Shown here piece after piece: positions 911-11,923 of a DNA stretch of 15,038 bases. The translations under genes were made by a program, and so were the position numbers. The notes below the pieces were generated by a model, which saw only the letters and a list, made by a program, of their open reading frames with translations, was not told the DNA's origin and did not search any database. This DNA comes from Novosphingobium sp. (GTDB taxonomy: Bacteria > Pseudomonadota > Alphaproteobacteria > Sphingomonadales > Sphingomonadaceae), in NCBI GenBank assembly GCA_030830245.1, contig JAURNJ010000145.1, forward strand, positions 1 to 15,038, read 5' to 3'. The stretch's first letter is position 1; each line of letters begins with the position of its first letter.

Positions 911-1119
911 CAGCGATCCCCGCGTGCAAAACCGGCAAGGCCGGCGACCGGAGCACGGCCGGCAGAATTCCCGATCAATTCGCGCTCGACTGTGCGGATC
1001 CGCGACAGCAGGTCGGATGCAGACCCGTATTCGACGGTCTTGCCCTCGTAGCTGACCCGCAGCGTGCCGGATGCGTAGGCACGTCGCAGGGCTTCGAGTT
1101 CAGCGGTCGTCCAGCTCAT
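910..1119 (-). CDS. gpW-like head-tail joining protein
   Basis: This is a 69-residue protein beginning MSWTTAELEALRRAYASG and containing SYEGKTVEYGSASDLLSRI. Proteins of this size and pattern between large terminase and portal are gpW-family head-tail joining proteins, which plug the portal after packaging so that the tail can attach. The start was set at ATG 1119 because AAAGGA (1128-1133) lies 8 bases upstream and because this ATG overlaps the terminase stop as ATGA. The alternative ATG at 1128 would add three residues but overlaps the ribosome-binding site. The helix-rich first half and the beta-hairpin-like VSYEGKTVEYGS segment fit the known alpha+beta fold of gpW. It is the middle gene of a tightly overlapping terminase-gpW-portal string. 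Confidence 0.85.
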   Translation of the reverse strand: MSWTTAELEALRRAYASGTLRVSYEGKTVEYGSASDLLSRIRTVERELIGNSAGRAPVAGLAGFARGDR

Positions 1120-3137
1120 CGCAGCCATCCTTTGTCGACGCCCGAGAGCCAGTCAGAGCGGCGTTTGCCTCCAATCGCGGGAGCACGCGCCAACACACCG
1201 GCTGCAATCGAGGCGTCGGGTTTCACATCCAGCATGTGTTCGGGCATGGGCCCGACCTGATCCTCCAGGTCGCGCCACTTCTCATCGGTCCAGCGATCAA
1301 CGCCCGCGATCCATGCCGCCGCACGGGCGTAGACCCGGCAGTCGAGCACCTCGTTGCGTTCCCTGAGCTTCTGCCATTCGAGCTTCTGAAACCCACGGCG
1401 GGTCTTCACGCTGATCAGCTGCTCTGCAACCAGCTGCTTGACCCATTCCGCCTCAAGCCCGCGCGGCAAGTGCACATATCCGGCGGGATGGCGCGCCCCA
1501 TCGAGAATGTCCTCATCAGTCGGCCGCACAAGGCGCAGATAGCGATAGGTCTCGCTCTTGAAAGTCGCGACCGCGACGGTCCAGAGCCTGGCGCCACGGC
1601 GCAGTCTTTTGCCCCCCTCCGTCACATCCACGAAGGTTGGACCGACGACCGGCGCGGCGCGATTGAAGCCCTCGACGCCTTTGAGCGGCGCGACTTGCGC
1701 ATGCCCCATGGCGCGCGCCCATGAATAGACGGCGGCTGCCTCATAGCCCGTGTCGATCCCGAGCTTGGCGAGGCCGAGCCTTGCGCCATGAGCGTGCGGC
1801 CAGGTGCGATTGAGCAGAGACCCCAGTTCCGACCAGCACTCTGGATTATCGGGTCCGCCATCGATGACGATGTGGTCGACGAGCCAGCTCGTAAGATCGC
1901 GTCCCCATGCCCAGATCGAGACTTCGATCCGGTCCTTCTGCACATCGGCGCCGGCCGTCAGAAACAGGCCGCCGCTTGGTACGGTACCGATCTGCCAATC
2001 TTCGCGCCGGTCATAAATCCGCTGCCAGTCCGGCGCATCGCCAGTCTCGATCCAGGTCTCGCCCAGAACGCTGTTCTTGAAGCTGCGCTTGGCTTCATCG
2101 CTCGACTGGGATGTTTCCCACATCCGGGCGATCATGGCCCAACTCATCCACCCGACCGGGGAGTAGAGCGCCGAGAGGTGGAACCCAATCGTGCCGGGAT
2201 CCCTCGCCTCGGCGGTGGCGCGCCATTCGCCGTCTTCGAGCATTGCGATCTTGTGATGCTCTTCGATCGGGGTATCACAGGCGTCGCAGATGTAGTGCGC
2301 CGTCTCCGGCTTGCCCTTGTCCCAGCGGAGCCTCTCGAAGCGCAGCCACTGGCGGTGTTGGCAATGCGGGCATGGCACGAAGAAACGCTGCTGGTCGGAC
2401 GCTTCGAATTCGCGTTCGATCCGCGACACGCCATGGATTGTCGGCGTCGACGCGAGGAACACCTTCGACCGCCAAGAGAAGGTCCTAGTGCGCGCTTCAG
2501 CAAGCGCGACCGGATCGCCTTCCTCGTCGGCCGAGGGCGGATAAGCATCGACCTCGTCCAGAAACAAATAGCGCGCCGGCATTGAGCGCAGCCCCACCGC
2601 GCTGTTCGCCCCGGTGATGACCAGAAGCCCTGCCGGAAACTCCTTCGACAGGACCGTGTTACCGGCGTCCCGCGCCCGGGACGGCTTGACCCGCTCGCGC
2701 AAGCTCGGGCTCTCAGCGATCAGCGGCTCGATGCGTTGACGCGAGAACCGCTTGGCAAGCTCCACTGTCGGCTGAACCGAAAGCATCGGCCCCGGCGCAT
2801 GGTGAATCACATAGCCGATCCAGTTGTTTCCAGCTTCCGTTGCGCCAACCTGCGCCGCCTTCATGAAGACGATGCGCCGGACTGGATGCGACGGCGATAG
2901 CGCGTCCATGATCGCGCGCATGTAGGGCGTGCGATCCGTTCTGTAGCGCCCGGGCTCGGCCGAGGCGCGTGGGCTCAAGAAGCGATGACGATCGGCCCAT
3001 TCCGAGACGGTAAGCAGTGGGTCGGGCGTGAGCCCGTCGCGCCAGGATCTCCAGAGTTCGTCTGCGCCTTCAAAGGCGAAAGCATCAACGGAACTCAGGT
3101 CGGATCTCGGCAAGCTCGGCGAGATGGGCGCGGACAT
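1116..3137 (-). CDS. Phage terminase large subunit, GpA family
   Basis: This is the ATP-driven packaging motor and nuclease that cuts concatemeric phage DNA and pumps it into the prohead through the portal. Numbered from the upstream TTG at 3146, the ATPase domain shows a Walker A-like loop KAAQVGATE (96-104) and a Walker B YLFLDEVD (193-200), followed by LASTPT as the coupling motif. A zinc-ribbon-like pair CPHC (259-262) and CDAC (287-290) follows, as in many GpA proteins. The C-terminal nuclease has acidic candidates in LTAGADVQKD (D401) and GIDTGYEA (D465). ATG 3137 was chosen over TTG 3146, giving 673 residues, the normal family length. The 5' end overlaps the small-subunit gene by 53 bases, so the two are probably translationally coupled. 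Confidence 0.95.
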   Translation of the reverse strand: MSAPISPSLPRSDLSSVDAFAFEGADELWRSWRDGLTPDPLLTVSEWADRHRFLSPRASAEPGRYRTDRTPYMRAIMDALSPSHPVRRIVFMKAAQVGATEAGNNWIGYVIHHAPGPMLSVQPTVELAKRFSRQRIEPLIAESPSLRERVKPSRARDAGNTVLSKEFPAGLLVITGANSAVGLRSMPARYLFLDEVDAYPPSADEEGDPVALAEARTRTFSWRSKVFLASTPTIHGVSRIEREFEASDQQRFFVPCPHCQHRQWLRFERLRWDKGKPETAHYICDACDTPIEEHHKIAMLEDGEWRATAEARDPGTIGFHLSALYSPVGWMSWAMIARMWETSQSSDEAKRSFKNSVLGETWIETGDAPDWQRIYDRREDWQIGTVPSGGLFLTAGADVQKDRIEVSIWAWGRDLTSWLVDHIVIDGGPDNPECWSELGSLLNRTWPHAHGARLGLAKLGIDTGYEAAAVYSWARAMGHAQVAPLKGVEGFNRAAPVVGPTFVDVTEGGKRLRRGARLWTVAVATFKSETYRYLRLVRPTDEDILDGARHPAGYVHLPRGLEAEWVKQLVAEQLISVKTRRGFQKLEWQKLRERNEVLDCRVYARAAAWIAGVDRWTDEKWRDLEDQVGPMPEHMLDVKPDASIAAGVLARAPAIGGKRRSDWLSGVDKGWLR

Positions 3138-3648
3138 GCGTCTCAAGAACCTTTTGCATCGGATGCGCTTCGACGCCGAGTTCAGCCGCCATCAGGGCTG
3201 CGATGCGCGCTGGCCAATTGACCCATGTGTCGCGCTCCTCGCGCGCAAGCCGGAATACCAGCGCCGTCGCCCGCGAACGGTCGACGACTTCGTTCTTCAT
3301 CTTCTGAAGCCTGAGGCGACGCTCCTGGGCCTTGAGCACCTCGTTGGCGGTCTTGGCTTGCAGGAACGTCGTCCCACCGCCGTTGGGCGGGGCGGCGATA
3401 CCATTCTCCCGCAGCGTGTCGCCGACAGCGGACAGGGCGGTATCAGGGACCGGCCTGAGCTTCGTGGCGCTCGGAGTGGAACGCTGCTTCGAGGGATCGG
3501 TCATGGCGGCGCGACGCGCGTCGCTGGCTGCCGCGTCGATCGATCCATCAGGCAGCAGAACCAGCCGTCCCGCGAGCCTTGCCTTCTGGATCGCGCCGCG
3601 AGACAGCCCGACATGGGCTGCATATTGGCGCTCGCTCATGCCCTTCAT
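3085..3648 (-). CDS. Probable terminase small subunit
   Basis: This is a 187-residue protein directly upstream of, and overlapping, the large terminase gene. Residues 1-40 (MSERQYAAHVGLSRGAIQKA, then LVLLPDGSID) form a helix-turn-helix of the kind used by Nu1-type small subunits to bind the packaging start site. The middle is low-complexity and Pro/Ser/Thr-rich. The C-terminal half (LKAQERRLRLQKMKNEVVDR onward) is a long charged helix that probably assembles the oligomer and contacts the large subunit. ATG 3648 has AGGA 7 bases upstream; ATG 3639 is an alternative. The assignment relies on position, HTH and the KAQERRLRLQKMKNEVVDR pattern common in small-terminase-like proteins of alphaproteobacterial prophages. 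It starts only 15 bases after the parE stop. Confidence 0.82.
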   Translation of the reverse strand: MKGMSERQYAAHVGLSRGAIQKARLAGRLVLLPDGSIDAAASDARRAAMTDPSKQRSTPSATKLRPVPDTALSAVGDTLRENGIAAPPNGGGTTFLQAKTANEVLKAQERRLRLQKMKNEVVDRSRATALVFRLAREERDTWVNWPARIAALMAAELGVEAHPMQKVLETHVRAHLAELAEIRPEFR

Positions 3649-3655: not shown

Positions 3656-3669
3656 TCCTGACGTCAGGA
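3656..3669. repeat. 14-bp perfect palindrome at the parE / small-terminase junction
   Basis: TCCTGACGTCAGGA is a perfect palindrome that contains both the parE stop codon and the AGGA ribosome-binding site of the small-terminase gene. A second GACGTC at 3670-3675 repeats the one at 3660-3665 with a 10-base period. It could be an operator, a terminase-binding site or an mRNA hairpin that couples translation; the sequence alone does not decide. Confidence 0.5.
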
Positions 3670-3993
3670 GACGTCCGGATCCTTCATCCAGGCAGGGATG
3701 TCGCGCTCGGCATGGAGCACGCGCCAGACGTCAATGTGGGTCTCGCGCTCGAGGTAGAACACGAGATAGGGATACCGCTTCAGCGGCCAGAACTTGAGGC
3801 CCTGCAAATCCAGCTCATGGGCATACCGGCTGGAGCCGCTCGCAGGGTGCCGCGCGATATGCTGGTAGGCCCGCTCCACGGCATCGACGAAGCCCAAGGC
3901 GACGGCTTCTCCGGCCTGGTCGAGATAGTGGTCGAGGGCCTCTTCGACGTCCCGGTTGGCCAGCTCGCGCGGAATGACCGGTTTGGCGCTCAC
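3664..3993 (-). CDS. parE: ParE-family toxin (first parDE module)
   Basis: This is a 109-residue type II toxin of the RelE/ParE superfamily; classical ParE poisons DNA gyrase. The family pattern is clear: IPRELANRDVEEALDHYLDQ in the first helices, AYQHIARHPASGS before the sheet, then LKFWPLKRYPYLVFYLERET and IDVWRVLHAERDIPAWM, the conserved C-terminal strand and tail. It starts with GTG at 3993, overlapping the parD stop as GTGA, so toxin synthesis is coupled to antitoxin synthesis. Length and motifs are complete, so the toxin is probably functional. The gene ends 15 bases before the small-terminase ATG with no terminator between them, so its transcript can run into the packaging genes. The target (gyrase) is family knowledge and was not seen here. 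Confidence 0.92.
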   Translation of the reverse strand: MSAKPVIPRELANRDVEEALDHYLDQAGEAVALGFVDAVERAYQHIARHPASGSSRYAHELDLQGLKFWPLKRYPYLVFYLERETHIDVWRVLHAERDIPAWMKDPDVS

Positions 3994-4229
3994 GTCGCCT
4001 GACGGCTGCGGGCCCGGGCGCGCAGCCCCTCGAAGTAGCCCTCATCTGCCGCAGCGGCCGGCGCCGACTGGGCGCCCTGTAGGAGCAAGCCACGCAGATG
4101 CTGACGATCGAGGTCTTTGCGGATGAGCTCGCGGACATACTCGCTGCTCGTCCCAAAGCCGCGCGCAGCGACCTGCTCGTCCACGAAGGATTTGAGCGAT
4201 TCCGGCAGGGAGATGTTCATCGTGGTCAT
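3990..4229 (-). CDS. parD: ParD-family antitoxin (first parDE module)
   Basis: This is a 79-residue antitoxin beginning MTTMNISLPESLKSFVDEQV, the N-terminal ribbon-helix-helix DNA-binding domain of ParD/CopG proteins. FGTSSEYVRELIRKDLDRQH completes the DNA-binding fold. The flexible C-terminal part (GYFEGLRARARSRQAT) is expected to wrap around ParE. The frame is open further upstream, but homology begins at ATG 4229, or at the second Met at 4220, and a sigma70-like promoter ends 6 bases before 4229. No Shine-Dalgarno sequence precedes either ATG, so the message is probably leaderless. By analogy with other ParD proteins it should repress its own promoter; TTGGCAA direct repeats overlie the -35 and the spacer. 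Confidence 0.92.
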   Translation of the reverse strand: MTTMNISLPESLKSFVDEQVAARGFGTSSEYVRELIRKDLDRQHLRGLLLQGAQSAPAAAADEGYFEGLRARARSRQAT

Positions 4230-4235
4230 GGGCGC

Positions 4236-4264
4236 AAGATAGCCAGTTTGGCAAAAATTGGCAA
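4236..4264 (-). promoter_or_regulatory. parDE promoter with TTGGCAA operator repeats
   Basis: On the minus strand TTGCCA (4264-4259) and TATCTT (4241-4236) are separated by exactly 17 bases, a good sigma70 match. The first transcribed base would fall at or next to the A of the parD ATG at 4229, which implies a leaderless mRNA. TTGGCAA occurs twice, at 4248-4254 and 4258-4264, one helical turn apart, and GCCAgttTGGC (4242-4252) is a short inverted repeat. These are likely ParD/ParDE binding sites. Confidence 0.7.
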
Positions 4265-4399
4265 GATCCGCCGTACGGAGAGCCAGGACCGGCGCGCGGC
4301 GGAACAGGCAAAAAAAGCAATCGAATGATGCACTTATCGCCTTGCTAGGGGCACCGATCAGAGCCTGTATGGGGTCACAAACAAGCGCAGGAGAGCGCC

Positions 4400-4621
4400 G
4401 TGACCAAGACCGCCGCCAAGCAAACCGCCCTCGACGCATTCATCGCAAGGAAGGCCGAAATCGACGCTGCGCTCGAACGCCTGCAGGCGCTCAGCGATGA
4501 CCATTTCGACTACGCCCCTGAGGAGATCCATTGGGGTCATGTCGGAACCCTTGCCCACTACGCAGAGCTGCTGAAGCGCATCACCGACAGCGCCTTCAAG
4601 GAAGGCAAACACGCCGATTGA
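4400..4621 (+). CDS. Hypothetical protein, 73 residues
   Basis: The start is GTG at 4400, supported by AGGAGAG at 4389-4395, 4 to 6 bases upstream. The protein is small, soluble and helical: TALDAFIARKAEIDAALERL looks like an amphipathic helix and may form a coiled coil, followed by DHFDYAPEEIHWGHVGTLAH and a C-terminal charged helix ending KEGKHAD. There is no signal peptide or membrane segment. I do not recognise a named family, although similar small proteins occur beside DUF3489 genes in rhizobial genomes, as here. It is read opposite to the phage genes and ends 20 bases before a stable hairpin (4642-4669). A regulatory or cargo role is possible but not shown. Confidence 0.75.
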   Translation: MTKTAAKQTALDAFIARKAEIDAALERLQALSDDHFDYAPEEIHWGHVGTLAHYAELLKRITDSAFKEGKHAD

Positions 4622-4641
4622 CGAGCGCCCGGCGCACTCAC

Positions 4642-4669
4642 AGCCCCGACCGGTATTGCCGGCGGGGCT
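4642..4669 (+). terminator. GC-rich hairpin downstream of the 73-residue gene
   Basis: AGCCCCG-a-CCGG (4642-4653) pairs with CCGG-CGGGGCT (4659-4669) around the loop TATTG, giving 11 base pairs with one bulged A. No U-run follows, so it may be a weak intrinsic terminator or an mRNA 3' stabiliser between this gene and the DUF3489 gene. Confidence 0.5.
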
Positions 4670-4728
4670 TGGGGTCCTAGCAGCGCCGCGAGGGTCGCGG
4701 ACGCCGCTTAAAACGAAAGGATCCCGCC

Positions 4729-5286
4729 ATGAAGCTTTCCGACACGCAGCTTGTCATTCTCACCGCCGCCGCGCAGCGATCGAATTTGCTCGCGCTTCCA
4801 CTGCCGCAGAACCTCAAAGGCGGCGCGGCGCAAAAGGTTGTCGCTTCGCTGCTGAAGCAGGGCTTGCTGGAAGAAATTGACGCTGACACGCGGACCGGTG
4901 AGCCGGTCTGGCGCAAAACCGGCGACGTTCATGGCGTTACGCTCGCCATCACCGAGCAGGGGCTTGCCGCCATTGGCATCGAGCCAGATGAAGCCGACAA
5001 CGCACCCGCGAGTGAGACAGAAGAGCCGCCGCAGGAATCCGCGCCGCATCGCGAAGCCGAGGCCGCGCAATCGACGCGTATGCCGCGCGCCGGGACCAAG
5101 CAGGCCGCGTTGATCGCCATGCTGTGCGCGCCGGACGGTGCGACCATCGAGGAGATCACCACCGCCACAGGCTGGCAGGCCCACACGGTGCGCGGGGCCA
5201 TCGCCGGAGCACTGAAGAAGAATCTCGGGCTCGACGTGACCTCCGAGAAGGTCGAGGGACGCGGGCGGGCTTACCGGATCGTCTGA
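4729..5286 (+). CDS. DUF3489-domain protein
   Basis: This 185-residue protein has two helix-turn-helix-like segments joined by an acidic, Pro/Glu-rich linker (about residues 85-120). The N-terminal part (MKLSDTQLVILTAAAQRSN, then LKGGAAQKVVASLLKQGLLE) resembles a winged helix. The C-terminal part (TKQAALIAMLCAPDGATIEE, then TGWQAHTVRGAIAGALKKNL and EGRGRAYRI) is the DUF3489 domain, common in alphaproteobacterial prophages and mobile elements. ATG 4729 has AAGGA 7 bases upstream. The function of DUF3489 is not established; the architecture suggests binding to nucleic acid and perhaps transcription control. It sits between a small unknown gene and the phd-toxin pair on the same strand, with a separate promoter for the latter. 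Confidence 0.88.
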   Translation: MKLSDTQLVILTAAAQRSNLLALPLPQNLKGGAAQKVVASLLKQGLLEEIDADTRTGEPVWRKTGDVHGVTLAITEQGLAAIGIEPDEADNAPASETEEPPQESAPHREAEAAQSTRMPRAGTKQAALIAMLCAPDGATIEEITTATGWQAHTVRGAIAGALKKNLGLDVTSEKVEGRGRAYRIV

Positions 5287-5298
5287 TAGCCAAAATCC

Positions 5299-5349
5299 TC
5301 GACGCGCATCGATAAGGACGCTATATTCGCACCGAATTCGATGCGCGTC
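5299..5349 (+). promoter_or_regulatory. phd promoter framed by a 12-bp inverted repeat operator
   Basis: GACGCGCATCGA (5301-5312) and TCGATGCGCGTC (5338-5349) are perfect 12-bp inverted arms, 25 bases apart. The -10 TATATT (5322-5327) lies between them, and the -35-like TCGACG (5299-5304), 17 bases upstream of it, overlaps the left arm. The right arm abuts AGGAGG (5350-5355). This layout fits an autoregulatory operator for a Phd/YefM antitoxin-toxin complex. Confidence 0.75.
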
Positions 5350-5361
5350 AGGAGGCCAGCC

Positions 5362-5637
5362 ATGAATATCACAGAAGACATCAGCCCGCTGACCGAGTTC
5401 AAGCGGGAGTCGGCGCGCATGATCGCGCACATCAAGGAAACTGGGCGGCCGCAGATCCTGACCGTGAACGGCAAGCCATCCGTCGTCGTGATGGACGCCG
5501 CCGCATGGCAGGACATGCAGGACCAGCTCGACTACGCCGAGACCGTTGCGGGAATCCGCAAGGGTCTGACGCAGACCCGCGCCGGTGAAGGCGTCGAGGC
5601 CAGCCGGTTCTTCGATGAGCTTGCCCAATCCAAATGA
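5362..5637 (+). CDS. Phd/YefM-family antitoxin
   Basis: This is a 91-residue antitoxin of the Phd/YefM family, which binds the toxin through a C-terminal tail and its own promoter through the N-terminal fold. Typical sequence is present: ISPLTEFKRESARMIAHIKE, TGRPQILTVNGKPSVVVMDA and WQDMQDQLDYAETVAGIRKG, ending in a toxin-binding region with FFDELAQSK. An upstream ATG at 5341 is in frame but lies inside the operator arm. ATG 5362 follows AGGAGG by 6 bases and begins MNITEDISPL as family members do. The stop overlaps the toxin start (ATGA), so the two are coupled. The strong inverted-repeat operator upstream suggests tight autorepression. Confidence 0.93.
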   Translation: MNITEDISPLTEFKRESARMIAHIKETGRPQILTVNGKPSVVVMDAAAWQDMQDQLDYAETVAGIRKGLTQTRAGEGVEASRFFDELAQSK

Positions 5638-5945
5638 CTTCGCCATTGCCCGTGATCATCACGCCGAACGCGGCGAATGATCTGACGGAAGCATGGGTCT
5701 GGCTGCGTGAACGCAACCCGCGGGCTGCGGACGAATGGCTATCGGACATCCGGGGCACGATCCTTGGCCTCGGCGCCATGCCCGAGGCGCATCCGATCGC
5801 GCCTGAGTCTCAGGCGTTCGAACTGCCGATCCGTCGCGCCCTCTATGGCCGCGCAACGCGTTGGCGCATCTACTATGCCATCATCGACGGAATGGTGCAG
5901 GTTCTTCATGTCCGGCATGGTCGCCGCAGTGATTGGCAACCCTGA
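5634..5945 (+). CDS. RelE/ParE-superfamily toxin
   Basis: This is a 103-residue type II toxin paired with the Phd-like antitoxin. The sequence TPNAANDLTEAWVWLRERNP matches the N-terminal helices of RelE/ParE toxins, LPIRRALYGRATRWRIYYAI the central strands, and VQVLHVRHGRRSDWQP the C-terminal strand with the basic residues usual in this superfamily. The start ATG overlaps the antitoxin stop. Whether it cuts ribosome-bound mRNA or targets gyrase cannot be told from sequence. The last 65 bases overlap the 3' end of the convergent DUF7220-like gene. That overlap may have arisen when the module entered the phage genome, because the toxin C-terminus itself looks normal. Confidence 0.9.
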   Translation: MTSPLPVIITPNAANDLTEAWVWLRERNPRAADEWLSDIRGTILGLGAMPEAHPIAPESQAFELPIRRALYGRATRWRIYYAIIDGMVQVLHVRHGRRSDWQP

Positions 5946-6147
5946 TCGCTTCAAACAGCCGTCGCAGAGCAAATGACCGTGAGATGCTCACTACTGTGAA
6001 GATCGCGCCGATCATTAGGTTCTCCACCAGCGTCGTGTGCAGCGCGAACAGGGGAAACACGAGCTGCTGGCTGAGCACGGCGACGCCGTAGCCGATCGCG
6101 ACATTGGCAAGCGATTCCACCAACGACATACGTCGTGACTGCTTCAT
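5881..6147 (-). CDS. Small membrane protein, DUF7220-like phage protein
   Basis: This is an 88-residue protein beginning MKQSRRMSLVESLANVAIGY. It has two hydrophobic stretches, about residues 10-35 (SLANVAIGYGVAVLSQQLVF) and 38-57 (TTLVENLMIGAIFTVVSIS), followed by the basic end RSFALRRLFEAIR. It is a predicted two-helix inner-membrane protein of a type often found beside the terminase in alphaproteobacterial prophages, which I recall as DUF7220. A holin-like role is conceivable but unproven. The ATG overlaps the methyltransferase stop as ATGA. The final 19 or so residues (VANHCGDHAGHEEPAPFRR) are hydrophilic, are encoded opposite the toxin's last codons, and go beyond where I remember family members ending. 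They may be an acquired tail. Confidence 0.8.
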   Translation of the reverse strand: MKQSRRMSLVESLANVAIGYGVAVLSQQLVFPLFALHTTLVENLMIGAIFTVVSISRSFALRRLFEAIRVANHCGDHAGHEEPAPFRR

Positions 6148-7466
6148 GCCGCCTCCGTCGTAGGGTTCGCTCCAAGCCGCTCGGCTTTGATGACGTCAAA
6201 GCTTCGGCCGTCACCTTCCAGGATTGCGACGCTGCACGTCTGCGCTTGCCAGCGCTCCACCGCCACATCGACATATGCAGGGCTTATCTCCATCGCGAAG
6301 ACACGGCGACCATTGGCTTCGCCTGCCATAATCTGCGAGCCAGATCCGGAGAATGGTTCGTAGCAGAGCCCACCCCGCGCCACGTGCTGGCGCATCGGAA
6401 TTCCGAAGGCATCGAGCGGCTTCGGCGTTGGATGATCAGGGCGTTCTTCCCTCGCGAAGCTCGGTAGTTGCCAGGTCGAGGACAGCGTTTCCTCGGCTAC
6501 TTTCGGTGGTCGGTTTGGGCGACGCCAGCCCATGAAGCAAGGCTCATGTTTCCAGAGATAATGAGACCGGGTGAGCACACCGCGTTCCTTCACCCAGATG
6601 ATCTGCTGATGGACGAAGGCGCCGGCCTTCTCCCAGCAAGCTTCCAGCATGGCCTGTCGGCGAGACGCATGCCAACAGTACCAGGCCGCATCATCGGTAA
6701 TAGCTTCGGCAACGGCCGCTGCGATGAAGTTGTCATAGAGTTCAGCGCCCTGGGAGCTGTCGTCCCATGTCACACTCTCGCTCTCTGCTGGATCTTTTTT
6801 ACGCTTCGGATGGTTCGAGCCATCGTAATCTACGAGATATGGTGGATCGGTCGCGAACAAGACGGCACGCTCGCCATTCATCAGGCGGCGCACATTGGCG
6901 TGGCTGGTGCTGTCGCCGCAAAGAAGCCGGTGGTCACCCAGGATCCAAAGATCGCCCGTGCGCGACGCCGGATTGCGGGGCGGCTCAGGGATGGTCAGCG
7001 GCGGCGGCGATCCCTTGCTCTCAGAACTTCCCTCAGCTGTTTCCGGCTCGAAGGTGAGCAGCTTGTCGAGTTCACCGTCGGAGAAGCCGACCAGGGACAG
7101 GTCGAAATCATCGGCCAGCAGGCTCTGAAGTTCCACGGATAGAAGGGCCTGATCCCAACCGCCGAGTTCCGTCAGCTTGTTGTCGGCGATCCTGTAGGCT
7201 CGGCGCTGAGCCTCACTCAGATGGTCGAGGACTATTACCGGAGCCTCAGTAAGGCCGAGCCGGGTGGCGGCCAGGACACGGCCGTGTCCAGCGATCAGTT
7301 CACCATCCTTCGCGACGAGGCACGGCACGGTCCAGCCAAACGCCGCCATGCTGGCGGCGAGCTTCGCCACCTGATCATCGTCATGGGCTTTGGGGTTGGC
7401 GGCATAGGGCTGCAGCTTGGCCAGCGGCCAGGTCTCGATCCGCTCAGGGGCGAAGCTCAGCGTCAT
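6144..7466 (-). CDS. ParB-domain DNA methyltransferase (beta-class N4/N6 type)
   Basis: This 440-residue protein fuses two domains. Residues 1-130 are a ParB/Srx-like domain (WPLAKLQPYAANPKAHDDDQ, GELIAGHGRVLAATRLG at 56-72, and YRIADNKLTELGGWD). Residues 170-425 form an S-adenosylmethionine-dependent methylase with GDLWILGDHRLLCGDS, the catalytic DPPY (207-210), HPTPKP (345-350) and the cofactor-binding FSGSG (372-376). Motif order (DPPY, recognition region, FSGSG) is beta-class; DPPY is compatible with N6-adenine or N4-cytosine methylation. No restriction enzyme gene is adjacent, so it is probably a solitary phage enzyme that protects or marks phage DNA. No good ribosome-binding site precedes ATG 7466. 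It is coupled to the small membrane protein downstream. Confidence 0.93.
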   Translation of the reverse strand: MTLSFAPERIETWPLAKLQPYAANPKAHDDDQVAKLAASMAAFGWTVPCLVAKDGELIAGHGRVLAATRLGLTEAPVIVLDHLSEAQRRAYRIADNKLTELGGWDQALLSVELQSLLADDFDLSLVGFSDGELDKLLTFEPETAEGSSESKGSPPPLTIPEPPRNPASRTGDLWILGDHRLLCGDSTSHANVRRLMNGERAVLFATDPPYLVDYDGSNHPKRKKDPAESESVTWDDSSQGAELYDNFIAAAVAEAITDDAAWYCWHASRRQAMLEACWEKAGAFVHQQIIWVKERGVLTRSHYLWKHEPCFMGWRRPNRPPKVAEETLSSTWQLPSFAREERPDHPTPKPLDAFGIPMRQHVARGGLCYEPFSGSGSQIMAGEANGRRVFAMEISPAYVDVAVERWQAQTCSVAILEGDGRSFDVIKAERLGANPTTEAA

Positions 7467-7508
7467 AAAGGGCGTGTATCCCGGTTTGTGGATGCCGCGC
7501 GGGGTCCG

Positions 7509-7538
7509 GCTCCTGGACTCCAGGTGGGGTCCAGGAGC
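7509..7538 (-). repeat. 10-bp perfect inverted repeat upstream of the methyltransferase gene
   Basis: GCTCCTGGAC (7509-7518) and GTCCAGGAGC (7529-7538) pair perfectly around a 10-base spacer. It lies 43 bases before the methyltransferase ATG. CTGGAcTCCAG within it offers an alternative smaller hairpin. It could be an operator for methyltransferase control or a 5' UTR or terminator-like hairpin; there is no U-run on either side. Confidence 0.55.
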
Positions 7539-7654
7539 AACGAGGCACGCGCGAAAAAGTCTGGTTCTTCAGGGCCTGCGTCAGGTCAGTGCGTTGGTAT
7601 TGGTAGGCCTGGCTTCCCAAAAACCGACCCTGACGCTAGCGACGTTTCGCGCCT

Positions 7655-7680
7655 TGCCCTCCCGCATTACCAGGAGGGCA
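7655..7680. repeat. 8-bp inverted repeat in the methyltransferase-vapB gap
   Basis: TGCCCTCC (7655-7662) and GGAGGGCA (7673-7680) are perfect inverted arms around a 10-base loop CGCATTACCA. The geometry (10-base loop) matches the neighbouring repeat at 7509-7538. Function unknown. Confidence 0.5.
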
Positions 7681-7729
7681 GGAAGGACCCGCGATATCAA
7701 TGGGTTAAATCGCATTGCTCTCCGAGTAG

Positions 7730-7752
7730 ATTTCCGGTACATTTCCGGAAAT
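7730..7752 (+). promoter_or_regulatory. Candidate vapBC operator
   Basis: ATTTCCGG occurs twice, at 7730-7737 and 7741-7748, 11 bases apart. The second copy is part of a perfect 12-bp palindrome ATTTCCGGAAAT (7741-7752) ending six bases before the AGGAGG site of vapB. This is the expected place for the VapBC autorepression site. Confidence 0.6.
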
Positions 7753-7768
7753 CAACTAGGAGGCGGCC

Positions 7769-8053
7769 GTGGCCAACGCTCGCAAGACCCCGCTCGAATC
7801 GTTCCGCAAGCGCCAGAAGCGCGAGGGCATCGTGCGTGTCGAAGTTCAGGTGCGCAAGGAAGACGCCGTCCTGCTGCGCGGCGTCGCCCAGGCGCTTGGC
7901 GATCCGGCACGCGAAGCGGAGACACGCAGCCTGCTGAAAGCCCGCTTCATTGCTCCACGCCCTGTTGGGCTCAAGGCGTTGCTGGCGTCCGCTCCCCTGG
8001 ATGGGATCGAACTCGAACGCTCGCGTGACCTTGGCCGGCCGGTCGACCTGTGA
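7769..8053 (+). CDS. vapB: VapB-type antitoxin
   Basis: This 94-residue antitoxin is encoded immediately before a PIN-domain toxin. It starts with GTG at 7769 after AGGAGG (7758-7763) with a 5-base gap. The N-terminal half is strongly basic (TPLESFRKRQKREGIVRVEV, then QVRKEDAVLLRGVAQALGDP) and looks like a ribbon-helix-helix or similar DNA-binding fold. Residues 50-94 (TRSLLKARFIAPRPVGLKAL, then SAPLDGIELERSRDLGRPVD) fit the extended toxin-binding tail of VapB proteins, with the hydrophobic and acidic SAPLDGIELERS segment placed to block the toxin active site. Its stop overlaps the vapC GTG (GTGA). The antitoxin identity rests mainly on this pairing and on similarity to antitoxins of rhizobial vapBC loci. 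Confidence 0.88.
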   Translation: MANARKTPLESFRKRQKREGIVRVEVQVRKEDAVLLRGVAQALGDPAREAETRSLLKARFIAPRPVGLKALLASAPLDGIELERSRDLGRPVDL

Positions 8054-8463
8054 GTTTCCTGATCGACACGAACGTCATATCCGAGGTCCGCAAAGGGACG
8101 CGGTGCGATCCAAACGTTGCGGCGTGGTATTCCTCGATCAAGGATTCCGATCTTTATCTCAGCGCGCTGATCCTCGGCGAGATCCGCAAAGGCATCGAGC
8201 TTGCTCGCCCGCGCGACCCGGCAAAGGCCGAGGCCTTGCAAGGGTGGCTCGACGCTGTCGTTGAGGCTTTCGCCGATCGCGTGATCCCTGTCGATCGTTT
8301 CGTCAGTGACGCGTGGGGTCGCATGAGCGCCATGCGTCCCATTCCCGTCATCGACGGGTTGCTCGCGGCGACCGCCAAAGTTCATGACCTTACGCTGGTG
8401 ACACGCAACGACGCCGATGTTGCCGGCCTTGGCGTGCGCGTCCTCAACCCGTTCAAGGTATAA
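8050..8463 (+). CDS. vapC: VapC toxin, PIN-domain ribonuclease
   Basis: This 137-residue protein is a PIN-domain endoribonuclease; VapC toxins usually cleave tRNA or rRNA with Mg2+. All four acidic positions of the active site are visible: D6 in FLIDTNVISE, E44 in ALILGEIRKGIE, D102 in PVIDGLLAATAK, and N120/D121 in LVTRNDADV. The C-terminus GVRVLNPF is also typical. The length is normal, so the toxin should be active unless held by VapB. Translation starts at GTG 8050 inside the vapB stop. The gene is read opposite to the flanking phage genes, which suggests it is cargo and not part of the phage lytic programme. Confidence 0.95.
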   Translation: MSFLIDTNVISEVRKGTRCDPNVAAWYSSIKDSDLYLSALILGEIRKGIELARPRDPAKAEALQGWLDAVVEAFADRVIPVDRFVSDAWGRMSAMRPIPVIDGLLAATAKVHDLTLVTRNDADVAGLGVRVLNPFKV

Positions 8464-8501
8464 TCGGATCGACCGACGGGCCGGTTCCGGAATGGGCGTA
8501 A

Positions 8502-8552
8502 TCGGGTGTGCATTCGGGTATGGGTAATGCCATCGACGCGGAAACCGTTTAG
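8502..8552 (+). pseudogene. Possible remnant of a higB toxin gene (C-terminus only)
   Basis: In the frame ending with TAG at 8550-8552 the last codons read GxHSGMGNAIDAETV, resembling the end of HigB toxins (a GTH motif, then aspartate/alanine and IDAETV). The frame is closed by TAA at 8499-8501, and nothing further upstream looks like a toxin before the vapC stop at 8463. It lies 12 bases before the higA-like start, exactly where higB should end. The match is short and from memory of the family, so confidence is moderate. Confidence 0.45.
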
Positions 8553-8564
8553 AGGGTCACCGCC

Positions 8565-8936
8565 GTGGATATCACGCCAATCAAGACCCAGCGCGATTAC
8601 CGCCGCGCCCACAAGTAAGTCGCGGGCCTGATGACCGCAAAGCGCGGCACGCCCGAAGGCGATCGGCTGGATGTTCTGGTGACGTTGATCGACGCTTGGG
8701 AAGCCAAGCACTACCCGCTCGACCGTCCTGATCCCGTCAAGGCCATCAAGTACCACATGGACCAGGGTGGACTGGAGCCTCGGGATCTCATCCCGTTCAT
8801 CGGCAGCCGCAACCGGGTCTATGAGGTCCTCAACCGCAAGCGCCCGCTCACGCTCAAAATGATCTGGCAGCTGCATGACGGGCTCGGCATCCCGGCGGAG
8901 TCGCTGATCAAGAGCGGGCAGGATCACGCGGCTTGA
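8565..8936 (+). pseudogene. higA: HigA-like antitoxin with in-frame stop codon
   Basis: From GTG 8565 the frame reads MDITPIKTQRDYRRAHK, then TAA at 8616-8618, then VAGLMTAKRGTPEGDRLDVL and on to a natural stop at 8936. Full-length HigA antitoxins read through this point (roughly RRALKEIEGLM), so the TAA is a nonsense mutation, most simply GAA to TAA. The rest is intact: residues with TLIDAWEAKHYPLDRPDPVK, then IKYHMDQGGLEPRDLIPFIG, NRVYEVLNRKRPLTLKMIWQ and LHDGLGIPAESLI form the DNA-binding HTH. ATG 8631 could restart translation to give a 101-residue protein, but no ribosome-binding site precedes it. AGAGGG (8551-8556) supports GTG 8565. The upstream toxin appears lost, so loss of the antitoxin would carry no cost. 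Confidence 0.82.
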
Positions 8937-9270
8937 AAATTTCCGTGGCCACGCTTGCCGAGCCCGATGGGGAGCAATGATCGGGAGCACGGCCTCGCGC
9001 GAGACCAAATGTCGCGTTGGCGCCAGCGCGCTCGTCTCGTGAGGATGGCAGAAAATCTAGCCCAATCCGGCGTTTCTGTCCCTTCGAAAAGTGTCCGGCG
9101 GACGCTTTACTTTGCATCACTCCGCGTTGCGACAACTCCCCAAAAGAATGCTCGTGGACGGCCTGGCACCTGACGTCAGTCAAGGATGCTCTTCTCGGCC
9201 TGCACCTGCGACAAGCTGAGCCGGGCAACAACTTCAGTATCAGCCAAAGCAATCTCGCGTTGGGTGAAAG
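8937..9270. other. 334-bp stretch without a recognisable gene
   Basis: Open frames on both strands here are short or lack recognisable sequence, initiation sites and family features. I see a perfect palindrome CTGACGTCAG (9170-9179) and inverted 7-base arms GCACCTG (9202-9208) and CAGGTGC (9274-9280), the latter running into the parE 3' end. AT content is locally higher than in the surrounding genes. It may be decayed coding DNA left between two modules. Confidence 0.55.
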
Positions 9271-9570
9271 CTACAGGTGCCGTGCGACATCCATGCGCTG
9301 ATGCAGCACGCGAACAACGACAAGGTCCGATTCGGTGAGGCGGTAGAATACAAGATGAGAACCGACCGAATGTGTTAAGTAGCCATCTCGGATATCGACG
9401 AGACGCCCGATCTTCCTACCATTCGCCAGATCGTCAAACGCCTCGACGATGGCGGCGTGGTAGCTGTCAGCCTGCGCAAGCGACCAGGTCTTGAAGGTGT
9501 AAAGCCAGATTTCTTCGAGGTCGGCTTCTGCCCGGGGTGAAAGCAGACAGGCCCGGCTTTTACCCGGCAT
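9271..9570 (-). CDS. parE: ParE-family toxin (second parDE module)
   Basis: This 99-residue RelE/ParE-superfamily toxin is encoded downstream of a ParD-type antitoxin and overlaps it by 11 bases. Family pattern: LLSPRAEADLEEIWLYTFKT in the first helices, QADSYHAAIVEAFDDLANG, the GRLVDIRDGYLTHSVGSHLV loop and strand, FYRLTESDLVVVRVLH and the end HQRMDVARHL. It is complete in length. It differs clearly from the first ParE of this window in sequence and so is not a recent duplicate. The stop TAG at 9271 lies next to the unexplained gap at 8937-9270. By family analogy it would act on gyrase. Confidence 0.93.
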   Translation of the reverse strand: MPGKSRACLLSPRAEADLEEIWLYTFKTWSLAQADSYHAAIVEAFDDLANGRKIGRLVDIRDGYLTHSVGSHLVFYRLTESDLVVVRVLHQRMDVARHL

Positions 9571-9805
9571 GCTTGGTTCGCATGCGCTTCAGGAACGCGT
9601 CACTGTCGAGCGGCGCCGGCTGACCGGATTGCTCTCCGACGATCAGCGCGTCCTGGAGAGCCTTCACCTTGGCCTCATGCTCTTCCAGAAGCCGCAAACC
9701 CGCCCGCACGACATCGCTGGCCGAGCCGTAGCGGCCGGTTTGAACCTGCCCATCAATGAATGCGGCGAAATGGTCGCCTAGGGAAACGGATGTATTGCGC
9801 GCCAT
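9560..9805 (-). CDS. parD: ParD-family antitoxin (second parDE module)
   Basis: This 81-residue antitoxin begins MARNTSVSLGDHFAAFIDGQ, then VQTGRYGSASDVVRAGLRLL, the ribbon-helix-helix DNA-binding domain of ParD. The remainder (EEHEAKVKALQDALIVGEQS, then PLDSDAFLKRMRTKH) is the toxin-binding region. ATG 9805 has AAGGAGG six bases upstream, unlike the apparently leaderless first parD. The coding sequence overlaps parE by 11 bases. A TACCA/TGGTA inverted repeat 29 bases upstream is a likely self-regulatory site. The module is divergent from the HipB-like regulator and shares a 197-bp control region with it. Confidence 0.94.
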   Translation of the reverse strand: MARNTSVSLGDHFAAFIDGQVQTGRYGSASDVVRAGLRLLEEHEAKVKALQDALIVGEQSGQPAPLDSDAFLKRMRTKHAG

Positions 9806-9834
9806 GCCACGCCTCCTTGGACGTGGGCAGCATA

Positions 9835-9849
9835 TACCATTTTTTGGTA
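9835..9849 (-). promoter_or_regulatory. Candidate parDE operator (TACCA-TTTTT-TGGTA)
   Basis: TACCA (9835-9839) and TGGTA (9845-9849) are inverted arms around five T residues, embedded in an AT-rich stretch with TATATG on the minus strand that could serve as a -10. The distance to the parD ATG (29 bases) suits a repressor site over the promoter. Confidence 0.5.
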
Positions 9850-9896
9850 CATTTGGATAGGCCGATCCATCTGTTTATCTCAGGCAGAATTATCAT

Positions 9897-9987
9897 CGAA
9901 CGACGACATCGTACGCTGTCACCGTTCGATGACTTTTTCGCTTGTCGCCGAACGGCGACAATGCTGTATTGTATGCGAACGACGACA
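9897..9987 (+). promoter_or_regulatory. Promoter and four-copy operator of the HipB-like regulator
   Basis: The 12-base motif CGAACGRYGACA occurs at 9897-9908, 9949-9960 and 9976-9987 on the plus strand and once inverted at 9917-9928. The copy at 9949 is also half of a perfect palindrome with 9-base arms TTGTCGCCG and CGGCGACAA (9942-9961). A promoter fits: -35 TTGTCG (9942-9947), 17-base spacer, extended -10 TGC-TGTATT (9962-9970). Occupied sites would cover the -35, the -10 flank and upstream DNA. Confidence 0.7.
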
Positions 9988-10002
9988 ATTGAACGAGGCG
10001 CT

Positions 10003-10296
10003 GTGCACAATCGAACGCCTTTGGACTTCGGGCTGGTCATCCGTCATCGGAGAAGGCAGCTCGCGCTCAACCAAGCAGATCTTGCTCGCCGCGTCGGCGT
10101 TAGCCGCCAATGGATAGTGGCCGTCGAGCAAGGCAAAGCGCGGGCGGAATTGGGCCTCGTCCTACGCACCCTCGCGGCGCTCGACTTGAAGCTAGCGCTA
10201 GAGGCATGCGTCGACGCAGCCACGCCGAGTGTCGATAGCGTCGTACCGATCGACATTGATGCCGTCGTCGAGGCCGCAAAACGTCGGGGCACGTGA
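10003..10296 (+). CDS. HipB-like helix-turn-helix regulator (orphan antitoxin)
   Basis: This is a 97-residue Xre-type DNA-binding protein. RTPLDFGLVIRHRRRQLALN, then QADLARRVGVSRQWIVAVEQ (residues 24-43) and GKARAELGLVLRTLAALDLK follow the HipB antitoxin pattern closely. The C-terminal 30 residues (ending AVVEAAKRRGT) are less conserved. GTG 10003 was chosen because the HipB-type start HNRTPLDFG follows directly and GAGG (9994-9997) lies 5 bases upstream; longer frames run back through the operator. HipB normally represses and neutralises the kinase HipA, encoded next. Here 52 bases separate this stop from the stop of a convergent phage gene, and no hipA is present. It may now act as a stand-alone repressor, possibly of other promoters with the CGAACGRYGACA motif. 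Confidence 0.85.
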   Translation: MHNRTPLDFGLVIRHRRRQLALNQADLARRVGVSRQWIVAVEQGKARAELGLVLRTLAALDLKLALEACVDAATPSVDSVVPIDIDAVVEAAKRRGT

Positions 10297-10309
10297 CATG
10301 CTCCCCGAC
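10283..10309 (+). terminator. Hairpin at the 3' end of the HipB-like gene
   Basis: GTCGGGG (10283-10289) and CCCCGAC (10303-10309) pair perfectly around a 13-base loop that includes the stop codon. No U-run follows. It lies in a convergent junction where termination is expected, so a weak terminator is possible. Confidence 0.35.
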
Positions 10310-10348
10310 AAACGATGCGCCGGCCAAATCCACTGATCGTGCCTTCTG

Positions 10349-10789
10349 CTAGGGTTGCGGCCCCGGTGGGCGCACCAGCTCAATGATATATCGCCTCGAA
10401 CGCTTGCCAGGGACTCGCCGCCCGTTGAGTTGCCAAGCAATTACGCAGAGCGCGTAGAGCCAGTGCTCATGCGCCGCAGAGCGCTGCATGCCGACCGCCC
10501 AGCAGATCGCCTTCCACCGTTCGCCATGTGCACGCATCCAGACGATCTTGCCGTCGATCGCGTCGAGGCCGACCGTCCAGCTTAGCGTTTCCTCCATGCG
10601 GCTGATGGCGGCGGGCGAAGGCAGCACGCGCATCGGCTTTGCCTCCTGTCCGACCTTGTCGGCAAAGTCGTGCACGATCTGCGGCCAGACGTTGAAGTAG
10701 CCGCGCCGGCGGTCTGCCGGCAGACGCTTCAGCACAAAGGCCGCTTCGGAAAGACGTTCCTCGACGAGGCTCGGCGTCCATTCGGTCAT
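10349..10789 (-). CDS. DUF6362-family phage protein
   Basis: This 146-residue protein begins MTEWTPSLVEERLSEAAFVL, then KRLPADRRRGYFNVWPQIVH. Later parts are PSPAAISRMEETLSWTVGLD, VWMRAHGERWKAICWAVGMQ and SAAHEHWLYALCVIAWQLNG. I recognise the pattern as DUF6362, usual in alphaproteobacterial prophages upstream of the packaging genes. The segment RWKAICWAVGMQRSAAHEHWLYAL resembles a helix-turn-helix, so DNA binding and late-gene control is a reasonable inference, not an established function. ATG 10789 has AAGGAGG 7 bases upstream and overlaps the stop of the preceding 65-residue gene (ATGA). It is the last phage gene before the first TA-rich gap. Confidence 0.85.
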   Translation of the reverse strand: MTEWTPSLVEERLSEAAFVLKRLPADRRRGYFNVWPQIVHDFADKVGQEAKPMRVLPSPAAISRMEETLSWTVGLDAIDGKIVWMRAHGERWKAICWAVGMQRSAAHEHWLYALCVIAWQLNGRRVPGKRSRRYIIELVRPPGPQP

Positions 10790-10983
10790 TGCTGCGCCTC
10801 CTTGCGTTTGGTGCGATCGCCGTAGAGCTTCTCGCCGAGTTGTCGGATCAGTTCACGCTCCGGCCAGGTCAGCCGGGCATCGTCGAGCGAGACCGCCAGT
10901 ACGCGCTGCTCGCGCCAGCCATCGCGCTTGATCTCGTCGGGTGTGCGGCGATTGCCGCCATAACCGGGGGGCGCCCACTTCAC
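10786..10983 (-). CDS. Small phage protein, 65 residues
   Basis: The frame is open further upstream, but the likely start is GTG at 10983, which overlaps the stop of the RuvC-like gene (GTGA) and has GAGGAGG 6 bases upstream. The protein begins MKWAPPGYGGNRRTPDEIKR, continues DGWREQRVLAVSLDDARLTW and ends in a charged helix (PERELIRQLGEKLYGDRTKR). It is soluble and basic. The LTWPERELIRQLGEKLYG segment looks like a single DNA-binding or protein-docking helix pair. Similar short proteins sit between RuvC-like and DUF6362 genes in related prophages, as I recall, with no assigned function. Its tight coupling to both neighbours suggests a shared role in late replication or gene control. Confidence 0.8.
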   Translation of the reverse strand: MKWAPPGYGGNRRTPDEIKRDGWREQRVLAVSLDDARLTWPERELIRQLGEKLYGDRTKRKEAQQ

Positions 10984-11510
10984 AGCACGCCTCCTCGTGT
11001 CTCCATCGCCCAGAGCAGGATCGCGAGCGCATCGGCCTCGTTGTCGTCGGCGGGGTTGAAACCGCGACTGCGCATCGCTGCCAGGACAGCCTGTTTGTCG
11101 GCATTGCCCTTGCCCGTGGCAAAGCGCTTCACGGTGCCGACGGGGACGCCCTGGTAGGCCACGCCCTTGCGCTCGCACCACGCGCTCAGCGTCGCCAGGA
11201 AGCCTCCGTAGATGTGCGCTGCATCGGTGCCGATGTGACGGCGGACCTCTTCGAAGTAGATCGCCGCCACGCCGCCTGTGTCTTCGGCGAGCCCCTCAAG
11301 CCATGTCTGGAAACGCAGGTAGCGCATGCCGCCGCCGTCGTAGCGCCCTGTGTGGAACGTCATGGTGCCGCTATGCACGACCCCCTGGACCAGACCTGCC
11401 CAACCGGTCGTGGTGCCGAGATCAAGGGCCAGGATGGTCCGGGCCGCTGGGATGACGGGCGGCGTCGACCGGAGGCCGGGCATGGTCACGGGTGCAGGGT
11501 GTGTGCTCAT
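10980..11510 (-). CDS. RuvC-like Holliday-junction resolvase (phage type)
   Basis: This 176-residue protein has the RNase H fold signature of crossover-junction endonucleases, which resolve branched DNA before packaging. Acidic active-site candidates are in order: D30 in ILALDLGTTTGWAGL, E87/E88 in AIYFEEVRRH, and D156/D160 in DDNEADALAILLWA. The basic segment VKRFATGKGNADKQ (127-140) fits the DNA-binding region of RuvC. The first 25 residues are proline-rich and poorly conserved. ATG 11510 has AGGG about 9 bases upstream; a longer frame upstream would cross the repeat region and is not credible. It is followed, with a GTGA overlap, by the 65-residue gene. Placement in the phage replication block supports the role. 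Confidence 0.9.
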   Translation of the reverse strand: MSTHPAPVTMPGLRSTPPVIPAARTILALDLGTTTGWAGLVQGVVHSGTMTFHTGRYDGGGMRYLRFQTWLEGLAEDTGGVAAIYFEEVRRHIGTDAAHIYGGFLATLSAWCERKGVAYQGVPVGTVKRFATGKGNADKQAVLAAMRSRGFNPADDNEADALAILLWAMETRGGVL

Positions 11511-11596
11511 GGAAGTCGATCCCTGGGGGAGGTGGCGGATGGTCGAGGGGTTGAGATGCAGGCCACGCGCGCGCGAAGCCCCTGGGGGTGGGAATG

Positions 11597-11640
11597 GGAG
11601 ACCCCGCCTGCGGCGGTCTCCCCACCCCCGAAGGGGGTGG
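11597..11640 (-). repeat. Two tandem GC-rich hairpins upstream of the resolvase gene
   Basis: The first hairpin, as read on the minus strand, has perfect 8-base arms CCACCCCC (minus 11640-11633) and GGGGGTGG (11629-11622), and its apex can form C(UUCG)G, an unusually stable tetraloop. The second (11621-11597) has a 10-bp stem GGAGACC-GCC with a 2-base bulge. No U-run follows. They lie in the 5' region of the resolvase transcript or the 3' end of the helicase transcript, and could slow polymerase or protect an mRNA end. Confidence 0.55.
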
Positions 11641-11698
11641 CTTTCACCCCCTAAACTTGAACTGACCAATAGTGCATTGATTGGATTGATGTTTTTCC

Positions 11699-11896: not shown

Positions 11897-11923
11897 CCTG
11901 CGGGATGTGCGTGAGGCCCGCGA

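Follow-up and report, generated by a model that had tools for sequence, protein, structure and literature searches.

We analyzed contig JAURNJ010000145.1 of Novosphingobium sp. over its entire length of 15,038 bp (hereafter, the window), one of 351 contigs in a 2.14-Mb metagenome-assembled genome (MAG) that is 71.8% complete, and focused on the toxin-antitoxin (TA) loci that lie among its phage genes. The minus strand carries, in order, an exonuclease, a helicase/primase-like gene, a RuvC-like resolvase, p73, DUF6362, a DNA methyltransferase (MTase), DUF7220, the small (TerS) and large (TerL) terminase genes, a head-tail adaptor and a portal gene, and the plus-strand pair of DUF3489 and p4400 is found between DUF7220 and TerS (Table 1). 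The TA loci occupy three junctions in this order: DUF6362/MTase, DUF7220/DUF3489 and p4400/TerS. An earlier note on this DNA had placed them in exactly two gaps, a count that has to be revised because DUF3489 and p4400, which stand between the loci, are core genes (present in 146 and 132, respectively, of 193 fetched related loci, which are labeled here with L-numbers). For the same reason, we rejected DUF3489 and the 73-aa p4400 as candidate parts of a TA locus.

Table 1. Positions, strands and supporting matches of the features in the window.
Feature	Position	Strand	Match or remark
TerL (large terminase gpA)	1116..3146	-	PF05876 + PF20454
TerS (small terminase), anchor	3085..3648	-	phrog_57, 120.7 bits
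parE1 toxin, 109 aa	3664..3993	-	PF05016, 47.9 bits; common to the p4400/TerS junction of L005-L008 and L199
parD1 antitoxin	3990..4230	-	TIGR02606, 47.5 bits (cut-off 46.2); start at 4230 or 4221
p4400, 73 aa, core gene, not TA	4400..4621	+	phrog_14596, 124 bits
DUF3489, core gene, not TA	4729..5286	+	PF11994, 110.2 bits
Insert, DUF7220/DUF3489 junction	5294..5950		also replaces the DUF7220 3' end; L008 11582 and 11516 align to 5293 and 5951
phd antitoxin	5362..5637	+	PF02604, 44.9 bits
relE/parE toxin, 103 aa	5634..5945	+	PF05016, 43.5 bits
DUF7220, anchor	5881..6147	-	PF23858, 107.1 bits
MTase (ParB-like/N6-N4 DNA methyltransferase), anchor between the proposed hotspots	6144..7466	-	PF01555, 41.1 bits
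Element E3, conserved noncoding block upstream of MTase	7610..7693	-	
Insert A, DUF6362/MTase junction	7692..9020		vapBC cassette (7692-8520) and higBA relic (8529-8937)
vapB-like antitoxin, 94 aa	7769..8053	+	GTGA overlap with vapC; AGGAGG upstream
vapC toxin, PIN domain, 137 aa	8050..8463	+	PF01850, 46.6 bits
higB relic, last 8 codons (8526-8549) and stop	8526..8552	+	NAIDAETV, versus DAIDAQTV at the end of intact L288 HigB
higA frame	8565..8936	+	in-frame stop at codon 18; 101-aa open reading frame left from 8631
Element E5, conserved noncoding block between inserts A and B	9021..9125	-	present in L005-L008 between DUF6362 and MTase
Insert B, DUF6362/MTase junction	9126..~10391		parDE3 and orphan hipB; also replaces the DUF6362 3' end
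parE3 toxin, 99 aa	9271..9570	-	PF05016, 70.2 bits; PDB 8c24 ParE1, 2.2e-21
parD3 antitoxin, 81 aa	9560..9805	-	PF03693, 117.1 bits
hipB-like orphan antitoxin, 97 aa	10003..10296	+	TIGR03070, 67.4 bits; start codon inferred; no hipA
DUF6362, anchor of the proposed main hotspot	10349..10789	-	PF19889, 136 bits
p73, 65 aa		-	between the RuvC-like gene and DUF6362
Helicase/primase-like gene	11924-14257	-	
Exonuclease	14209-14976	-	

Four type II TA pairs appear complete (parDE1, 3664-4230; phd-relE, 5362-5945; vapBC, 7769-8463; and parDE3, 9271-9805), and the toxin and antitoxin genes overlap in all of them. Against the Pfam cut-offs (PF05016, 23 bits; PF01850, 23.6; Phd PF02604, 29.8; ParD PF03693, 21), the adjacent ParE and ParD of parDE3 both scored above threshold, as did the Phd antitoxin and the RelE/ParE-superfamily toxin of phd-relE. 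The adjacent partners of parDE1 also exceeded curated cut-offs, ParD narrowly and in NCBIfam; when parD1 was read with extra upstream codons, it scored 17.7 bits and fell below the Pfam ParD cut-off. The VapC toxin has FitB (2h1c, 4.6e-15) as its nearest solved structure. The vapB product had no match in Pfam, NCBIfam or PHROG, and we pair it with vapC because the two genes overlap and a 98% identical copy adjoins vapC in L272. Across the MAG, this contig accounts for all three ParE matches, the single Phd match and one of two PIN matches.

Two further loci lack a toxin. The earlier note had counted six TA loci, four intact and two decayed; the four intact pairs and the decay of higBA are borne out, whereas the hipB-like gene proved to be full-length, and an orphan. 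No HigB toxin is present in the window beyond the last 8 codons. The relic peptide is by itself a poor match (E 7.7), but a DNA match to L288 (8529-8937, 80%) spans the relic and continues into HigA; L288 encodes an intact HigB (PF09907, 102.9 bits) and an uninterrupted HigA to which the higA frame is 86% identical. The higBA region is identical in the near-identical metagenomic contig L004, and its decay is therefore not an error of one assembly. The helix-turn-helix domain of the hipB product covers positions 2-58 of the 58 in TIGR03070, at a score slightly below the cut-off of 71.65 bits, and this full-length match rules out a degraded gene. No match of note to HipA was found in the window, so hipB stands alone, downstream of an inverted repeat (9893-9932). 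Complete hipBA pairs occur in L227 and L236, and hipBA of another type in L252 and L257 (domains checked in L227 and L252). A further antitoxin without its toxin, a TacA lacking TacT, lies next to a Fic gene at L254:8509-8784. The antitoxin side was thus kept at both window loci (HigA in part only) and in the L254 TacA, which fits the expectation if losing the toxin is harmless and losing the antitoxin first is not. These three cases do not prove a rule.

To relate these loci to other phages, we collected related loci by MTase search (the best 80 of 531 viral loci and the best 80 of 368 from prokaryote genomes) and removed identical MTase sequences, which left 131 of 160. Apart from L004, which is the same phage, these MTase relatives are 82-94% identical, and the genera named for them we take to be Alphaproteobacteria, most often Rhodobacterales. 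Open reading frames in the relatives came from a home-made hexamer model, by which small or unusual genes may be missed. The nearest complete relatives, L005-L008 (MTase 91.6-94.1%), have a DUF6362/MTase gap of 331-340 bp (643 bp in L005, with an 88-aa open reading frame of no known family), a DUF7220/DUF3489 junction of 3 bp and a p4400/TerS junction of 749-750 bp with parDE1. The terminase-adjacent parDE1 is the only TA module that the window shares with these four phages, and it is therefore old in this branch; the other modules would be recent arrivals or were lost by the relatives, and the short gap in most relatives favors arrival.

Alignment with L006-L008 runs through DUF6362 up to window position 10392, resumes in a block from 9019/9021 to 9097-9125, and resumes again from 7691 on, so that two inserts, A and B, flank the conserved block E5. 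Insert A is missing from L005-L008, where the equivalents of 9019/9021 and 7691 are no more than a few dozen bases apart, and insert B is bounded by the ends of the alignment at 10392 on the DUF6362 side and at 9125 or 9097 on the other. G+C content is ~57% across 9001-10250, versus mostly 60-68% elsewhere in the window. At the DUF7220/DUF3489 junction, the window, L092 and L025 alike carry phd-relE in 594 bp. A contig end in another phage (L023:9165-9224) holds the last 20 relE codons of phd-relE at 90% identity, and L023 may therefore have this module in the same junction.

We compared junction lengths across these relatives (window included, L004 left out), counting a junction as expanded if it was over 200 bp longer than the 5th percentile for that junction. 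Four junctions were variable (DUF6362/MTase, 28 of 120 expanded; MTase/DUF7220, 92 of 118; DUF7220/DUF3489, 53 of 114; p4400/TerS, 14 of 103) and the others were seldom expanded (helicase/RuvC, 2 of 69; RuvC/p73, 4 of 110; p73/DUF6362, 0 of 113; DUF3489/p4400, 4 of 106; TerS/TerL, 1 of 103). Of the four variable junctions, three are expanded in the window and the fourth, MTase/DUF7220, is gap-free there. In relatives, the extra DNA at MTase/DUF7220 often consists of a large open reading frame from a small number of families. The DUF7220/DUF3489 junction of a Sagittula prophage (L130:10218-12248) holds a 676-aa protein that matches the candidate defense family PDC-S41 (977 bits).

For a census of the DUF6362/MTase gap, we pooled the MTase, DUF6362 and TA searches; the gap was resolved in 178 distinct loci, among which this phage counts once. 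The gap exceeds 600 bp in 50 loci, of which 29 contain TA genes, from eight families if Fic is included as TA (28 loci without the Fic-only case): TacAT in 13, AbrB-Doc in 4, hipBA in 4, parDE in 2, and higBA, DarTG, Fic alone, Fic with vapBC, Fic with a lone TacA, and the set of this phage in 1 each. Seven more carry other cargo (DRT9 and DUF3800 twice each; dGTPase, nitronate monooxygenase and SRAP). Labels were assigned by domain or defense-profile matches and by homology to the proteins so matched. In no other phage did the gap contain TA genes of more than two families.

The kinds of cargo found there would also suit an arsenal in which the modules serve mainly as abortive-infection defense against other phages, for the same gap in relatives holds DRT9 (L056; L095 by 93% identity), DarTG (L132), a SoFic-like Fic protein (L050) and dGTPase (L088). 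PADLOC gave no match for VapC, the sole window toxin queried there, and, to our knowledge, ParDE, VapBC and Phd-RelE are not by themselves defense families, which counts against such a role. In favor of it, the hotspots of P2 and P4 phages are reservoirs of systems with shown activity (PMC9122126). On balance, we regard a mainly defensive arsenal as possible and lean away from it.

We used the end sequences of short gaps to map the position of the cargo in 29 loci. The stretch from DUF6362 to the E5-side block holds TacAT, DRT9, DarTG, the L050 Fic gene, dGTPase, DUF3800, hipBA and the L254 TacA. Doc and the Fic gene of L254 were placed between the E5 and E3 blocks, and the stretch from the E3-side block to MTase takes in SRAP and nitronate monooxygenase. 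The vapBC of L272 directly adjoins E3, with no E5 recognized in that phage, and neither block was recognized in L285 or L288. An E3 profile was found in 236 of the 315 sequences searched (in 223 of which the block precedes the MTase start by a median of 161 bp), and an E5 profile in 161. E5 contains a dyad resembling TGTCCGGCGGACA, which is swapped for another sequence in the subgroup L067, L082, L123 and L161 while the opposite end is retained, and E3 ends in a near-invariant TTTTTGGGAAGCCA-like string. Both blocks may be operators, promoters or terminators. Consensus scans returned 5 terminator-like sites (5.3 expected) and 3 promoter-like sites (1.2 expected). A known RNA family in the gap was rejected, as the sole Rfam match (E 0.86; 28.2 bits versus a gathering threshold of 70.4) falls within the MTase gene. 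Part of E3 is found on both sides of vapBC in L272 (786-868 and 1716-1765), the sole duplication among the E3-bearing sequences and possibly a trace of cassette joining. As a general direct-repeat mechanism for cassettes this was discarded, since E3 is duplicated in 1 of 236 sequences and a repeat search of the window showed none such.

For every module in the main gap the closest relative is a different one, from a different phage, which supports the proposal in the earlier note that the modules were acquired separately. The vapBC cassette (7692-8520) is 98% identical in DNA to that of L272, where it likewise adjoins E3 and MTase but has a Fic gene as a neighbor; identity is 97-99% within vapBC and 82-95% in the adjoining MTase stretch, and the L272 DUF6362 is only 51% identical to that of the window. 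The higBA relic matches L288, in the gap after DUF6362. The match of vapBC to L272 stops at 8520, and the joint therefore lies at 8520-8529, coinciding with the loss of HigB. The parDE3 stretch (9261-9853) is 80% identical to a module of L285/L286, there after DUF6362, and the hipB stretch (9931-10183) is 69% identical to its counterpart in L227, where intact hipBA lies in the same gap, as it does in L236. As that note had anticipated for an alignment with related prophages, the TA sets vary and the flanks stay constant, which supports its suggestion that the site tolerates insertion; it had also reasoned that a co-inherited block of the same six loci would speak against separate acquisition, and among the fetched loci the main-gap set is shared only by L004.

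To assess selection on the modules, we estimated the ratio of nonsynonymous to synonymous substitution rates (dN/dS) by Nei-Gojobori count. The parDE1 and phd-relE genes are under purifying selection in 11 of 12 comparisons, with dN/dS of 0.08-0.19, although the comparisons are not independent because the phages compared are mutually related (parE1: L005, 0.14; L006, 0.14; L007, 0.16; parD1: L005, 0.16; L006, 0.13; L007, 0.14; L008, 0.19; phd: L092, 0.08; L025, 0.11; relE: L092, 0.19; L025, 0.16). The 3' end of relE overlaps DUF7220, an added constraint on relE. For parD3 versus L169, dN/dS was 0.14 at a dS of 1.25. These ratios, and the retention of parDE1 in all five near relatives with a complete junction (L005-L008 and L199), argue against the idea that the junctions merely tolerate DNA and that TA genes are selfish arrivals of no use to the phage, staying until they decay. 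That idea would account for the toxin loss at two of the six loci, for a main gap of at most 600 bp in 128 of the 178 loci and for a metabolic-looking nitronate monooxygenase among the cargo (L022), and we consider it unlikely.

A source assembly of 351 contigs at 72% completeness could in principle have joined pieces of different phages. In a separate metagenomic record, L004, the arrangement is unchanged over 5881-14976; the record ends in DUF7220 with the last relE codons just visible and is 99.78% identical over 9,096 bp, with 20 differences, none of which falls in the main junction. Moreover, L272 shares the vapBC/MTase joint, and L025 and L092 share the phd-relE junction. An assembly or binning artefact thus appears to be already largely refuted for the main junction and is very improbable overall. 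Ten of the 20 differences fall in an 85-bp stretch of the RuvC-like gene (L004:6331-6415 versus window 11052-11136), a cluster that suggests local recombination or an assembly join.

The life cycle and affiliation of the phage were deduced from its relatives. A serine recombinase is encoded in L004 and in 8 of 11 other records, a tyrosine integrase in 1 of 12 records, and related loci lie within large contigs of isolate genomes; judging from the recombinase and the isolate contigs, the lineage is most likely temperate, integration being proposed for the lineage and not for the copy in the window. By megablast, the window had no match among named phages. Searches with DUF6362 (8 records, 28-31% identity), the 73-aa gene (10 records, <60%) and MTase (583 records, all <60%) gave distant matches. 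No close isolate of this lineage was found, and the phage is known from metagenomes alone.

A temperate habit raises the prospect of addiction, in which the modules would kill or arrest cells that lose the prophage. The serine recombinase of L004 and related records is compatible with such a role, and, as a review reports, prophage CP4So cannot be maintained without a type II TA (PMC12548467). One module would suffice for this purpose, however, and many relatives have none in these gaps, which leaves addiction as the main explanation doubtful.

We next asked how unusual the stack is, using 50 viral records (48 of 149 distinct contigs, picked mainly for length, plus L272 and L288; 49 of the 50 exceed 20 kb). 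ParE was found in 12 records and never twice in one, compared with three in the window; PIN was found in 6 and TacA in 4. In the main gap, PIN occurs only in L272 and TacA in two of its four records (L028 and L201). By hand mapping, ParE lies at p4400/TerS in four records, at DUF7220/DUF3489 in one (L025), near that junction in one (L229) and elsewhere in six. Several TA modules also occur together in L028 and L201 (TacAT and ParE), L052 (Doc, ParE and PIN) and L288 (TacAT, higBA and a BrnT toxin gene). The window holds the most TA modules seen, and having several is not unique to it.

From these comparisons, we propose that the window contains a TA-rich hotspot for accessory genes, of the kind known from P2 and P4 phages, which lies at the replication/packaging boundary and is fed by exchange between related phages, a reading to which we assign a probability of about 0.68. 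The comparisons show TA modules at three junctions that in relatives are empty or hold something else, and, in the main one, cargo that flanks conserved noncoding blocks. The stretch between the replication and packaging genes of a probably temperate phage would provide favored landing sites for accessory cassettes. Modules would be passed between related phages that are co-resident in one cell, by recombination in the flanks they share, and each module, as a self-regulated transcription unit, would leave the surrounding operon undisturbed. New modules would land beside or on older ones, as vapBC probably did on higBA, removing most of HigB, and older modules would lose the toxin before the antitoxin. 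As to function and benefit, we infer that the intact modules most likely help to maintain the lysogen and turn the host cell into a hostile place for competing phages.

Several observations weigh against the hotspot proposal. Of the six ParE genes that lie elsewhere in the records searched, five are 11-13 kb downstream of the MTase start, and a relative of parDE3 (79-80%) follows TerL in eleven contigs of a related, other phage type (L274-L284), with the portal gene beyond it in nine and the contig end in two. TA genes thus also sit at other places in these phages, and the gap is therefore a favored site and not the only one. The E5 profile misses 10 of the 22 loci listed, L272 included, and E5 is therefore less constant than E3; the candidate repeat for a joining mechanism was seen in that one phage only. 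No recognized cargo was found in 14 of the 50 expanded gaps, one of which (L129) by eye seems to hold host genes, and L285, L286 and L288 have a different gene order, with DUF3489 and p4400 inside the gap. A single TacAT type accounts for 13 of the 29 TA gaps, and two pairs of loci are close (L285/L286 and L252/L257), so the number of independent acquisitions must be lower than 29. Lastly, parE1 versus L008 gave a dN/dS of 0.75, on 7 changes (2 synonymous, 5 other).

A more specific role can be imagined, in which the stacked modules would guard the recombination-prone replication/packaging junction: a related phage that replaced it by homologous recombination would remove the resident antitoxins and the cell would be poisoned, a form of allelic addiction. 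If so, an incoming phage would win only by adding a module of its own, so that layers would build up, with antitoxins persisting, as immunity to the earlier layers, for longer than toxins. We consider such a guard improbable. Under the broader hotspot proposal, two conserved anchor genes would mark where TA and defense genes collect in a lineage found in many alphaproteobacterial genomes, and would be a simple handle for finding more of them. The presence of intact, toxin-less and truncated modules side by side also makes it possible to ask why phages gather TA modules and in which order these decay.

The hotspots of P2 and P4 are described as small loci of ~1-5 kb between two conserved phage genes, with high turnover and often more than one system, the P2 hotspot lying between a replication and a packaging gene (PMC9122126). 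Similarly, the cargo here lies between two conserved genes at the replication/packaging boundary, and unrelated cargo turns over (eight TA families, DRT9, dGTPase, DUF3800, SRAP and nitronate monooxygenase). In contrast to P2 and P4, the site here belongs to another phage lineage, has mostly type II TA among its named cargo, extends over three junctions, places cargo on either side of conserved noncoding blocks and holds relics in which the antitoxin was kept; it is located upstream of the terminase genes, and the likeness is one of gene placement and cargo. Like the prophage type II TA modules covered in a review that proposes that such modules exclude competing phages (PMC12548467), the window has overlapping parDE, phd-relE and vapBC genes on a probably temperate phage; unlike them, it has four pairs and two relics within 15 kb. 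Among the matching titles listed, no published TA hotspot at these genes was found. Orphan phage antitoxins, of which phage enzymes against DarTG1 are reportedly an example, offer a further parallel, as phages here too carry an antitoxin gene that lacks its toxin (hipB in the window and the L254 TacA); in contrast to them, hipB here looks like a remnant left after loss of its toxin. What is unusual in this locus is how high the modules are stacked and that its relics keep only the antitoxin side, and otherwise it is a known kind of hotspot that is new in its details.

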